Shown: piece by piece, positions 40,831-44,454 of the stretch | Position numbering within the stretch: position 1 is the first letter of the stretch | Layout of the letters: each line of letters begins with the position of its first letter | Origin: Spirosoma taeanense | GTDB lineage: Bacteria; Bacteroidota; Bacteroidia; Cytophagales; Spirosomataceae | Direction: 5' to 3' | Length of the DNA stretch: 64,000 nucleotides | Assembly: GCF_013127955.1 (NCBI RefSeq) | Contig: NZ_CP053435.1 | Span: 3,509,001 to 3,573,000, forward strand | The notes under the pieces: generated by a model | Database searches by the model: none | Told to the model about the DNA's origin: nothing | Seen by the model: the letters and a program-made list of their open reading frames with translations, nothing else | Program-made: the position numbers and the translations under genes

Positions 40831-40893
40831 TAGAGTTCCCCCGTGCCAGTGCTCCTTCCAGGCTCATAATCAATTCATACAGCCAGCATTCAC

Positions 40894-40924
40894 TTGGCGA
40901 TTGTTCCGCTTCTGTTTACCTTTG
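40894..40924 (+). promoter_or_regulatory. Promoter of the his leader
   Basis: TTG (40894-40896), 20 nt, TACCTTTG (40917-40924). The leader-peptide ATG (40929) follows only 4 nt later, so the message would be leaderless or nearly so. Confidence 0.65.
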
Positions 40925-40928
40925 CGCC

Positions 40929-40991
40929 ATGATCTCCCAGCGGGCCACCGATTCTCCTTTCCGACATCGTCGCCATCATTACGGCCGCTGA
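40929..40991 (+). CDS. hisL: Probable histidine-operon leader peptide
   Basis: A 20-residue open frame ending FRHRRHHYGR, with three His codons (two adjacent) just before the stop and just before a GC-rich dyad. It lies between a strong promoter and hisG. Ribosome stalling at the His codons when charged tRNA-His is scarce would prevent the terminator, as in classic attenuation. The arrangement is seen directly; the mechanism is inferred. Confidence 0.7.
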   Translation: MISQRATDSPFRHRRHHYGR

Positions 40992-41025
40992 GCCGCCGGG
41001 TCCGTTACGTCGGGCCGTCATTTTT
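40981..41025 (+). terminator. his attenuator (leader terminator)
   Basis: ACGGCC (40981-40986) pairs with GGCCGT (41013-41018), followed by CA and T5 (41021-41025). A further GGGCC (40942-40946) in the leader frame could pair with the first arm as an alternative structure. Confidence 0.6.
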
Positions 41026-41029
41026 CCTG

Positions 41030-41037
41030 TACTTTTG
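41030..41037 (+). promoter_or_regulatory. Second possible promoter box before hisG
   Basis: TACTTTTG is a full TAnnTTTG match just after the attenuator, but no TTG lies at the right distance upstream. It could give attenuation-independent basal transcription. Confidence 0.4.
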
Positions 41038-41108
41038 CATCTTCATTTACTGAGTTTACGACCGTAGCGGTCAGTGTCCAGCCGTCGGTTGATTGTTTAT
41101 CCTGCATT

Positions 41109-41969
41109 ATGTCTTCTGTGTTACGCATTGCCCTACAAAAATCCGGTCGGCTGAGCGAAGATTCGTACCAGCTTTTCAAAGAATGCGGCATCCGCTTCGA
41201 CTATGGCACCGGCAAGCTCAAGTCTGTTTCATCCAATTTCCCGGCCGAATTCCTGTTTCTGCGGGATGACGACATTCCGGGTTACGTCGAAGACGGCGTG
41301 GCCGACCTCGGTATTGTCGGCGAGAACGTAGCTGTTGAAACGGGGCGTCCCGTGCAGACCATTCATAAGTTAGGTTTTTCGAAGTGCCGTCTGTCGATCG
41401 CCGTTCCGCGCGGCACCGACTGGACGGGAATTCAAAGTCTGGACGGAAAGAACATCGCTACCTCCTACCCGAATCTGCTGGGTAATTACCTCGCTGGCGA
41501 AGGCGTTCGAGCCGAAATCCACGAGATCAGCGGTTCGGTTGAGATTGCCCCGAGCATCGGGTTGGCCGAAGCAGTCTGCGACATTGTTAGCTCGGGAAGT
41601 ACGCTGCTGAGCAACGGTCTGAAAGAAGTGGAAACCATATTCCGTTCGGAAGCAATTCTCATTGCCCGGCCCGAGCTGGACGAAGATAAGCAGGCCCTGG
41701 TCGAAAAGCTGTTGTTCCGGATCAAGTCAGTGCAGGCGGCCAAGAACAACAAATACATCGTTCTGAACGCGCCGAACCACGCCCTCGACCAGATTACGGC
41801 GCTGCTGCCCGGCATGAAAAGCCCTACCGTAACGCCATTGGCCACCGAAGGATGGAGTTCGGTCCATTCGGTGCTAAACGAAAACGAATTCTGGGAAAAC
41901 ATCGAAGCCATCCGGGCCGCTGGTGCGGAAGGAATTCTGGTGATTCCGATTGAGAAAATGATCTATTAA
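41109..41969 (+). CDS. hisG: ATP phosphoribosyltransferase, long form
   Basis: 286 residues, the HisG_L type with a C-terminal ACT-like regulatory domain (about 210-286) for feedback by histidine. Conserved parts include LRIALQKSGRLSEDS, DLGIVGENV and the PRPP-site loop DIVSSGSTLLSNGL. First step of histidine synthesis: ATP + PRPP to phosphoribosyl-ATP. First gene of the operon behind a His leader and attenuator. Confidence 0.96.
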   Translation: MSSVLRIALQKSGRLSEDSYQLFKECGIRFDYGTGKLKSVSSNFPAEFLFLRDDDIPGYVEDGVADLGIVGENVAVETGRPVQTIHKLGFSKCRLSIAVPRGTDWTGIQSLDGKNIATSYPNLLGNYLAGEGVRAEIHEISGSVEIAPSIGLAEAVCDIVSSGSTLLSNGLKEVETIFRSEAILIARPELDEDKQALVEKLLFRIKSVQAAKNNKYIVLNAPNHALDQITALLPGMKSPTVTPLATEGWSSVHSVLNENEFWENIEAIRAAGAEGILVIPIEKMIY

Positions 41970-42023: not shown

Positions 42024-43313
42024 ATGAATATCATCTCTTTTCCCAGCCGTGCGGAATGGCCTCAGTTACTGGCCCGACCCGTGCAATCGACCCAGCAGAT
42101 CGAAGCGGTCGTTGCTCCCATCCTGGCGCAGGTCCGAGAGCAGGGCGACGCAGCCCTGATTGAACTGGCGCAGAAGTTCGACAAAACCGACTTATCGCAG
42201 AGTGGACTTGAGGTATCGCGGGCCGAACTCGACGCGGCCGAAGAGCAGCTCAGCGACGAACTGAAAGCGGCCATCCGGCAGGCTTACCAGAACATTCGTC
42301 TGTTTCACGAACGGCAGAAGCAGCCTGTCGAAAAGATTGAAACCATGCCGGGCGTAGTGTGCTGGCGCCGAAGTGTGGGTATCGAGAAAGTGGGGCTGTA
42401 TATTCCGGGGGGCACGGCTCCCCTGTTCAGCACAGTGCTGATGCTGGGGGTTCCGGCGCAGCTGGCGGGTTGCCGTGAGGTGGTGCTCTGCACACCCAGC
42501 AACCACCCGGCTATTTATTTCGCGGCCCGCCTGGTGGGCGTAACGAAGGTGTTTCGGGTTGGTGGGGCGCAGGCGATTGCCGCGATGGCCTATGGCACTG
42601 AGTCAATTCCGCAGGTTTATAAAATCTTTGGGCCCGGCAACCAGTATGTCACGGCGGCCAAGATGCTCGTCGCTAAAGAAGGCGTGGCCATTGATATGCC
42701 AGCCGGACCAAGCGAAGTAGCCGTTTATGCCGACGATTCGGCGGTTCCGGCCTTCGTGGCTGCGGATCTGCTCTCGCAGGCTGAACACGGCGCCGACAGT
42801 CAGGTACTGCTGGTTTCGACCAGCAAGAAACTGGTCGAGCTGGTGAATCTGGCTCTTCCGACGCAACTGAGCAAACTTCCCCGAGAAGCGCTGGCCACTA
42901 AAGCGCTGGAAAACAGCAAAGCGATTCTGGTCGAAAGTCAGGCGGATGCCATTGAGTTGCTCAATGCGTACGCAGCCGAGCATTTAATCCTGAGCGTCGA
43001 CAACGCCGAAGCGGTTGCCGAACAGATTACTAATGCGGGCTCTATTTTCCTGGGCAACTACACCCCCGAGTCGGCCGGAGACTACGCGTCGGGCACGAAT
43101 CACACACTGCCGACCAACGGCTTCGCCCGTGCGTACAGTGGTGTATCGCTGGACAGTTTTGTGAAGAAAATCACTGTGCAGCAGATTTCACCAGAGGGCT
43201 TACAGGCGCTGGGACCAGTGGTGGAAGCCATGGCCGAAGCCGAATCGCTCGATGCGCACAAGCGAGCCGTGCGTCTGCGGCTGGCGCGTCTGGCCGAAGC
43301 CAATCCGGCCTGA
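42024..43313 (+). CDS. hisD: Histidinol dehydrogenase
   Basis: 429 residues, full length. Signatures include GLYIPGGTAPLFSTVLM, the family signature region from FGPGNQYVTAAK to PAGPSEV, and the Zn-site/catalytic stretch AEHLI. It catalyses the last two steps, L-histidinol to histidine, with NAD. It is 54 nt after hisG. The gap contains a weak repeat of GAATGA-like words. Confidence 0.97.
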   Translation: MNIISFPSRAEWPQLLARPVQSTQQIEAVVAPILAQVREQGDAALIELAQKFDKTDLSQSGLEVSRAELDAAEEQLSDELKAAIRQAYQNIRLFHERQKQPVEKIETMPGVVCWRRSVGIEKVGLYIPGGTAPLFSTVLMLGVPAQLAGCREVVLCTPSNHPAIYFAARLVGVTKVFRVGGAQAIAAMAYGTESIPQVYKIFGPGNQYVTAAKMLVAKEGVAIDMPAGPSEVAVYADDSAVPAFVAADLLSQAEHGADSQVLLVSTSKKLVELVNLALPTQLSKLPREALATKALENSKAILVESQADAIELLNAYAAEHLILSVDNAEAVAEQITNAGSIFLGNYTPESAGDYASGTNHTLPTNGFARAYSGVSLDSFVKKITVQQISPEGLQALGPVVEAMAEAESLDAHKRAVRLRLARLAEANPA

Positions 43314-43340: not shown

Positions 43341-43580
43341 ATGAGCCGGTTACTAATCGAAATTAATTCGGAAGAGAACGAAGCCATACTGCTGTCGTTA
43401 TTACCCAAACTGGATGGACGCCTGATCGAGAAGAAACCCAGTCCTGAAAAGCCATCACTGGCTTCGGTATTGGAGACAATTATCCAGTCGGGCGGGGCGG
43501 GCGATTCGTTCGGTGATCCGTCAGAATGGCAGCGGGAGATTCGTAGCTGGGATCGTATTCTGGACGGCCGCGAAGAATGA
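43341..43580 (+). CDS. Probable antitoxin of a PIN-toxin pair
   Basis: 79 residues, acidic, immediately upstream of a PIN-domain gene with an ATGA overlap (43577-43580). The N-terminus (SRLLIEINSEENEAILLSLLPKLDGR) could form a strand-helix-type DNA-binding dimer, and the C-terminal part (GDPSEWQREIRSWDRILDGREE) could wrap the toxin. The family is assigned by position, not by a motif. It starts 27 nt after hisD, so the module sits inside the his transcript. Confidence 0.65.
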   Translation: MSRLLIEINSEENEAILLSLLPKLDGRLIEKKPSPEKPSLASVLETIIQSGGAGDSFGDPSEWQREIRSWDRILDGREE

Positions 43581-43957
43581 TCTTAGATAGCAACATCATT
43601 ATTTACTCAGCCAAGCCGGAGTATATCAGGCTGACCCGCTATCTGCAGGCTAATCAGGAAATCGTTCGGGTTTCGTTAATCTCTACGCTTGAAGTGCTTG
43701 GCTTTAGTCGATTGTCTGTTACGGATAAACAAATCTTCGAAGCTTATCTGAACAGCGTTCATATACTCCCTATTACCGAGGCCGTCATCACCGAAGCCAT
43801 TCGCCTGCGTCAGCAACGTAAACGCTCCGTGGGCGACGCCATTATTGCGGCAACGGCACTAATCCATAATCAACCCGTACTCACCAATAACCCAGCGGAC
43901 TTCGCCGACATCGCCGGTTTACAGGTCATTGCGCTGGCCGAGATTCTGAACGCATGA
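43577..43957 (+). CDS. PIN-domain ribonuclease toxin (VapC-like)
   Basis: 126 residues, normal VapC length. The acidic catalytic residues are in place: Asp4 (ILDSNIIIY), Glu39 (STLEVLG), Asp87 (SVGDAIIAATA) and Asp108 (NPADF). VapC toxins cleave tRNA or rRNA with Mg2+. It is coupled by ATGA overlaps both to the upstream antitoxin gene and to the downstream deformylase-like gene (43954-43957), an unusual tight three-gene unit. Confidence 0.85.
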   Translation: MILDSNIIIYSAKPEYIRLTRYLQANQEIVRVSLISTLEVLGFSRLSVTDKQIFEAYLNSVHILPITEAVITEAIRLRQQRKRSVGDAIIAATALIHNQPVLTNNPADFADIAGLQVIALAEILNA

Positions 43958-44454
43958 AACACCTCGCCGATCTGCTTCTTCTGGGCGATCCACGCTTGTA
44001 CCAATCCTGCGAACCGGTACTCGAATCAGAACTGCCGCTGGTGCCGGACTGGGTAGCCGATCTGCACAACGTCATGGAGGAGATTCGGGCAATGTACCAG
44101 TTCGGGCGCGGCATTGCGGCCCCTCAACTGGGCATTATGAAGCGGCTTATCTACCTGAACGTTGATCGGCCACAGGTTATCATTAACCCCGAACTGACGG
44201 CCGTCAGCGATGAACAGGACGAACTCTGGGACGACTGCATGAGTTTTCCGAATCTGCTGGTGCGGGTCCGGCGACACCGTAGCCTGACGCTCCGCTTTCG
44301 GGATGAACTCTGGCGACCACAGACCTGGGACGTAACGGACTGGGGGCTGTCGGAACTGATTCAGCACGAGTACGACCACCTCAACGGCGTCCTCTGTACC
44401 ATGCGGGCAGTCGACGCGCAGTCGTTCCGGTGGCGTCCTACGCCAACCCATTAA
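43954..44454 (+). CDS. Peptide deformylase-like protein with altered motif 2
   Basis: 166 residues. Motif 1 is GRGIAAPQLG (51-60) and motif 3 HEYDH (138-142) keeps the HExxH metal ligands and Glu139. Motif 2 is DDCMSF (93-98) instead of EGCLS: the metal-binding Cys95 is kept, but the Glu-Gly before it is changed. Canonical PDF removes formyl from nascent peptides. This could be a divergent deformylase or a paralogue with another substrate. It overlaps the toxin gene by 4 nt and precedes hisC by 14 nt. Confidence 0.85.
   Translation: MKHLADLLLLGDPRLYQSCEPVLESELPLVPDWVADLHNVMEEIRAMYQFGRGIAAPQLGIMKRLIYLNVDRPQVIINPELTAVSDEQDELWDDCMSFPNLLVRVRRHRSLTLRFRDELWRPQTWDVTDWGLSELIQHEYDHLNGVLCTMRAVDAQSFRWRPTPTH

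Follow-up and report, generated by a model that had tools for sequence, protein, structure and literature searches.

The region ahead of hisG in Spirosoma taeanense raises the question of whether members of the Bacteroidota, a phylum in which Shine-Dalgarno sequences are rarely used, control their histidine genes through leader-peptide attenuation, which is textbook knowledge for Proteobacteria, and through which RNA structure such a control would act. Classic elsewhere, this type of attenuation is little described in Bacteroidota. Within the window, namely the whole analyzed stretch of 64,000 nucleotides, a preliminary description had read positions 40894-41040 as a histidine leader peptide with an almost leaderless start, followed by a local attenuator with a GC dyad and a T run as its terminator. 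What had been observed was confirmed, and its interpretation was partly supported: the leader is real and conserved, its start is predicted to be leaderless, the promoters stand in tandem, and comparison with related loci makes an attenuator the most likely function.

The leader frame and its tandem promoters

The reported promoter, the ATG 4 nt past its box, the 20-codon frame, the dyad, the T5 and the second box are all present, and all features described below lie on the forward strand. The promoter P1 (40894-40924) comprises a TTG (40894-40896), a 20 nt spacer and the -7 box TACCTTTG (40917-40924), and the 4 nt CGCC separate this box from the leader ATG at 40929, which is also the predicted +1. 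The leader ORF (40929-40991), predicted to be leaderless, has 20 codons for the peptide MISQRATDSPFRHRRHHYGR, among which those for His (13, 16 and 17) and Arg are abundant, and ends with the TGA at 40989-40991. Downstream, the second promoter P2, with the -7 box TACTTTTG at 41030-41037 and a predicted +1 at 41042, precedes hisG (41109-41969; TIGR00070, 1.1e-55), the putatively regulated gene, and the next gene is hisD (42024-43313; TIGR00069, 3.7e-153). NCBIfam holds no family for the 20-aa leader peptide. As a separate observation, the gap between hisD and hisC (43341-44454) contains a 79-aa frame with no family match, a frame resembling a VapC-like PIN toxin, with a weak match below the cut-offs, and a peptide-deformylase-like frame.

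The same-genus sample of 36 genomes yielded 35 hisG loci, one genome (71% complete) having given none, and 34 of the 35 Spirosoma loci have, ahead of hisG, a leader with the core FRHRR and His codons; 33 of these leaders are complete, and that of L018, situated at a contig end, is visible in its last codons only. At L035, the leader frame is absent upstream of hisG and the P2 box is present. The commonest leader peptide is MISQRATHSPFRHRRHHRGC, and the outlying ones are those of L022, which reads RHCRPSC, of L010, which stops at RHRRHQ, and of L032-L034, which stop at FRHRR and have a single His codon each. Alignment A1 comprises 31 of the 36 complete leaders, L032-L034, L043 and L049 being left out, and alignment A2, which also lacks L005, comprises 30; across the 31 rows of A1, each leader has 2-5 His. 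In the same 31 rows, 59% of the single-base codon differences are synonymous when read in the leader frame, and 20% and 26% when read in the two alternative frames, as counted pairwise and thus non-independently; by this sequence comparison, the leader frame is under coding selection. Since a second reading frame is open too in 30 of the 31 rows, openness by itself is no evidence of coding.

The FRHRR core is the best-conserved part of the peptide, and the first His of this core stands at codon 13 in 34 of the 36 leaders, even in L032-L034 with their differing upstream codons, while an extra His occupies codon 8 in 17 of 33 leaders. The bases CGA-CAT of codons 12-13 (40962-40967) are invariant in all 31 rows of A1; both are minority codons in six genes of the window (CGA, 20 of 211 CGN; CAT, 25 of 78 His), and the invariance may reflect a slow-codon or a base-level constraint. 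A functional basic micropeptide, FRHRRHH..., as the product of the frame would fit with such a conserved core. However, the C-terminus is altered or lost in L010 and L032-L034, the leaders of other families differ in sequence yet are His-rich, and the position of the frame is tied to hisG in the examined loci, all of which renders this explanation barely credible.

The spacing between the P1 box and the ATG is kept at 4 nt (24 leaders) or 5 nt (nine leaders) in 33 of the 33 complete same-genus leaders, which predicts a leaderless mRNA or one with a 1-nt leader and upholds, as a prediction, the near-leaderless start that had been proposed; in the leaders L042, L043 and L049 of the genera g10 and g5, the ATG likewise lies 4 nt after the box. 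The promoter box of Flavobacterium psychrophilum is located at -12 to -5 according to PMC9723704, and a 4-nt spacing would therefore put +1 on the A of the ATG, provided that this box position can be carried over to Spirosoma by analogy. Leaderless mRNAs make up only 5.5% in that species, as given in the same paper.

A loose pattern places the P2 box 60-145 nt ahead of hisG in each of the 35 same-genus loci. Its presence in every locus, including L035 without a leader, and the single hisG promoter without a leader in several sister genera would agree with P2 alone mattering for hisG, P1 and the frame being a relic or a short independent RNA. Such a view has to face the coding selection and the fixed start spacing throughout the genus as well as the leaders of L043 and L049, which are carried without a P2 box, and we regard it as highly unlikely. 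P2 also counts against an attenuator, as it would bypass attenuation of any type.

Local hairpins, the T run and the trp yardstick

In the window sequence, the post-leader segment folds into the dyad (40999-41016; -10.8 kcal/mol), and the T5 (41021-41025) follows it. Both the frame and the dyad had been expected to be conserved in relatives; the frame is (34/35 loci), and the pairing of the dyad is not kept, so that the dyad, particular to the window sequence, was rejected as a terminator. L024 and L030 have no hairpin whatever downstream of the stop codon. All 33 leaders have a run of 3-5 T ahead of P2; a run of 5-7 T also precedes the sole hisG promoter in seven of seven sampled Larkinella and g30 loci, none of which has a leader, and a run of 1-4 T does so in seven of seven Rudanella-type and Fibrella-type loci. 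Since T runs precede hisG promoters even where there is no leader, the T5 belongs, in part at least, to the promoter.

In its folding energy, the leader region in the window does not stand out from shuffled sequences (z 0.23; 116 of 200 shuffles as good). No Rfam covariance model matched at the gathering threshold in the whole window, the two matches at 40850-41150 up to an E of 10 being at chance level, and tRNA alone was matched in eight further loci. The RNAalifold consensus was weak (-2.6 and -2.4 kcal/mol) and proposed hairpin H (41-44 with 54-57), and neither the stop-codon hairpin B:C nor the long-range stem A:D described below was found. The program is blind to A:D because its 3′ arm, segment D, moves along the alignment, and RNAalifold was therefore set aside as a judge of structure, duplex and permutation tests being used instead.

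Comparison between the relatives gives some support to two hairpins. In hairpin H (40969-40985), 40969-40973 pairs with 40981-40985 and the two adjacent His codons lie in the loop; with the fifth pair included, 90.2% of the cells are paired (0/500 shuffles), and all 31 rows can form the inner three pairs, one of which shows two double changes. Hairpin B:C (40982-40995; 55-58 with 63-66) is built across the stop codon, in the window sequence by CGGC with GCCG; its four pairs are formed in 88.7% of the cells (16/500 shuffles), and three of them show double changes (1/500 shuffles), with an ordinary covariation score (99/500 shuffles). A six-pair B:C was tried and rejected for showing no excess (71.7% of cells paired vs 70.3%; 101/500 shuffles), and four pairs were retained. 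L010 retains a hairpin at the B:C site despite its shifted stop codon. As H and B:C share the bases 55-57, they would be mutually exclusive, each having some covariation support within the weak consensus. A small hairpin, CGAC-AUC-GUCG (40962-40972), spans the Arg-His-Arg codons and is part of the minimum-energy folds for most rows, being broken in L023 and L026.

The three GGCC-containing segments (at 40942, 40983 and 41013) are positioned as first described, and the conserved pairings are others, namely H, B:C and A:D. A classic local attenuator, in which the three segments would pair alternatively and the dyad with T5 would terminate, can draw on the existence of the dyad and T5, on the stability of the dyad fold and on the exclusion between H and B:C, which resembles that of 1:2 versus 2:3 in classic attenuators. 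Yet we find it unlikely, given that relatives do not keep the dyad, that L024 and L030 do without any post-stop hairpin, and that the T run goes with P2 and also stands before hisG promoters without a leader.

The trp genes offer a yardstick within the same genus, where the sensing codons (WWW) likewise lie in a leader peptide. All 13 Spirosoma trpE loci (L143 and L117-L128) have a WWW leader, followed by a strong terminator carrying a T run; thus, leader-peptide attenuation is in use in Spirosoma and can involve strong terminators. Unlike this trp attenuator, which is not leaderless as judged by a box scan, the his leader has no strong conserved intrinsic terminator. This lack, together with the C/T-rich leader RNA over codons 9-18, would suit a control in which stalling at His codons acts via Rho-dependent termination or RNA decay, the pyrimidine-rich leader being covered by a stalled ribosome and exposed by a released one; however, the species-specific pairing of A with D would then be left unexplained, and we consider such a control rather doubtful. 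Apart from this, a tRNA-Pro(CGG) gene was seen upstream of the trp leader in 11 of the 13 Spirosoma trpE loci. The idea that other amino acids are sensed by the same leaderless design was dismissed, as no Trp-rich or branched-chain-rich frame directly follows a box in 12 trpE and 12 ilvD loci.

Long-range pairing of segments A and D

The best candidate to replace the terminator of the preliminary description is the long-range stem A:D. Segment A, at about codons 4-6 of the leader, is complementary to segment D ahead of the T run; in the window sequence, the 5′ arm A is CAGCGGGCCAC at 40938-40948 (codons 4-7) and the 3′ arm D is GGGTCCGTT at 40998-41006. The pairs found among the loci are AACGGG/CCCGTT, AACAGGC/GCCTGTT, AACAGAC/GTCTGTT and AAAACGGG/CCCGTTTT.

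On average, A pairs downstream better than shuffles do (mean z -0.67, compared with -0.01 and -0.10 for two control segments), and only 6 of 36 A:D duplexes singly beat 95% of their shuffles. Downstream parts swapped between loci pair as well as the own ones in 54 of 5000 permutations. In the A:D permutation test, with D confined to the final 34 nt and a single row for each of the 19 A classes, the own duplexes have a mean of -11.8 kcal/mol versus -9.75 (sd 0.45) for permuted ones, and 0 of 10000 permutations were as good, kinship being ignored; with all 36 rows, and kinship likewise ignored, 1 of 10000 was. Control segments at nt 23-38 and nt 31-46 were equaled by 944 and 565 of 3000 permutations, and the segment at nt 1-16, which overlaps A, by 0 of 3000. 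By these comparisons, the A:D pairing is species-specific. A and D misfit in L017, L022 and L031, and 22 other A segments bind the D of L003 better than its own A does. D lies nearer to the T run in most relatives than in the window sequence, and it does not adjoin the T run in L003, L004, L012 and L028; moreover, terminators usually have a shorter loop than A:D.

Ribosome occupancy changes the predicted pairing. When no ribosome occupies the leader RNA, 32 of 36 leaders pair A beyond the stop codon at P > 0.5, and when a ribosome sits on the stop codon, 28 of 36 do. If a ribosome is instead stalled at the core His (codon 13), A:D still has P > 0.5 in 28 of 36, and a second ribosome on the AUG reduces this to 0 of 36 because A is then masked. 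For the leader RNA of the window, the A:D probability falls from 0.80 to 0.09 with a single stalled ribosome.

We propose, with moderate confidence, that this region controls the hisG operon as a histidine-responsive leader-peptide attenuator, with P1 transcripts attenuated via A:D and P2 serving as the basal promoter. We infer that the leader would be translated, that it would respond to histidine, and that A:D with the U-run would end transcription. First, the P1 mRNA would begin at, or one base ahead of, the leader AUG. When charged tRNA-His is ample, the ribosome would reach the stop codon and depart, upon which A could pair with D, closing a multibranched structure that contains the stop-codon hairpin and ends at the U-run, and the P1 transcript would end ahead of hisG. 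When histidine is short, ribosomes would stall on the His codons (13, and also 8 in 17 of 33 leaders), and a stalled ribosome, alone or with one queued on the 5′ AUG, would cover A, so that A:D could not form and P1 transcripts would run on into hisG. Meanwhile, P2 would give a constant basal level of hisG mRNA without the leader, and the tandem of P1 and P2 makes it simple to test basal expression against that driven by starvation.

A two-ribosome ruler, in which the ribosome stalled at codon 13 and the one waiting on the AUG together cover exactly segment A, is a speculative refinement to which we give a small chance; if true, it would join the attenuator stem, the sensing codon and the position of the start into one mechanical unit. 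Judged by the number of bases, one ribosome stalled at codon 8 would be enough to cover segment A, and the codon-8 His would be the one-ribosome variant of the ruler. As Shine-Dalgarno sequences are rare in the phylum, a sensing ORF loaded at the 5′ end would show that attenuation is possible without one.

Relation to known attenuators and spread in the Cytophagales

The enterobacterial hisL attenuator constitutes the Rfam family His_leader. The Spirosoma leader shares with it the His-codon leader before hisG and, putatively, the mutually exclusive hairpins, and differs in reading RHRRHH without a run of His codons, in its predicted leaderless start, in having no conserved local terminator, in the second promoter between leader and hisG, and in giving no Rfam match. 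Polycysteine leaderless short-ORF attenuators have reportedly been described in mycobacteria by Canestrari and colleagues in 2020; as far as the title conveys, a leaderless ORF there senses the amino acid that the downstream operon serves, as is proposed for Spirosoma; phylum and amino acid are different and the long-range pairing belongs to Spirosoma.

His attenuation is described for enterobacteria only in the available part of PMC8305728, and a Bacteroidetes his attenuator is not described in that of PMC4833913. Short frames reminiscent of leader peptides are mentioned for Bacteroides (PMC7366714), and strong clues to leader-peptide attenuation of amino-acid operons in flavobacteria, along with a structured element ahead of the hisG of Flavobacteriaceae, are given in PMC9723704. 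That element shares phylum and gene with the Spirosoma leader and belongs to another class, and the passages on it give no leaderless start, leader sequence or structure. A literature search, thin on subscription journals, found no description of a Cytophagales his or trp attenuator, the flavobacterial transcriptome study with its clues coming nearest.

Among the matches of one search, 23 are the hisG leaders and those away from hisG were left aside, and so were separate matches in L103 and L105. In 23 other genera of the family, a His leader is present in 9 of 60 loci (six in Runella, two in g10 and one in g5), and with six loci added for Runella, 11 of 12 carry it, with runs of 3-5 His. A further 14 loci of the family gave no recognized leader, and none was seen at the sampled hisG loci of Larkinella, Rudanella, Fibrella, Emticicia, Dyadobacter and g30. 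In other Cytophagales families, 16 of 60 loci have a His-rich short frame, of which 15 were inspected, L198 being left out; their endings include HHFHHSS (Algoriphagus), NNHHHHHV, AWHHHAFHHGS and HPHQHGHHSS, and in seven of them a box is clearly recognizable before the ATG, at a spacing of 6-10 nt. The proposal that attenuation logic extends to Bacteroidota thus gains ground: owing to the His leaders in Runella and other families and to the trp WWW attenuators with terminators in 13 of 13 Spirosoma loci, leader-peptide attenuation in the order Cytophagales is well supported by sequence. The leaders from Spirosoma, Runella and the other families form a ready comparative set.

A textbook terminator lies downstream of the His leader in L154-L156, and a stem of at least seven pairs crosses the stop codon, the site of B:C in Spirosoma, in 10 of the 15 other-family leaders. 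Strong stop-codon hairpins of His leaders were seen in several Cytophagales families (L150-L153, L158, L186, L188, L189 and L200), and a shared RNA motif is possible. In Runella, a stem of CTACGCT with AGCGTAG was considered as a covarying structure and rejected, since its changes are one-sided and give no covariation support.

Some minor observations were made along the way. The locus L223 (NZ_JAPQNS010000001.1), titled Flavobacterium sp. SUN052, has a hisG that shares 89% identity with the query, as in Rudanella, so the entry is perhaps misnamed. Between P2 and hisG, in the 5′ UTR, an inverted repeat TGTATGA...TCATACA was noticed by eye in L007-L010, with none in the window. In Runella (L058-L061, L094 and L095), palindromes TTTGTACAA flank the leader promoter on both sides, and they are perhaps operators of a DNA-binding regulator.
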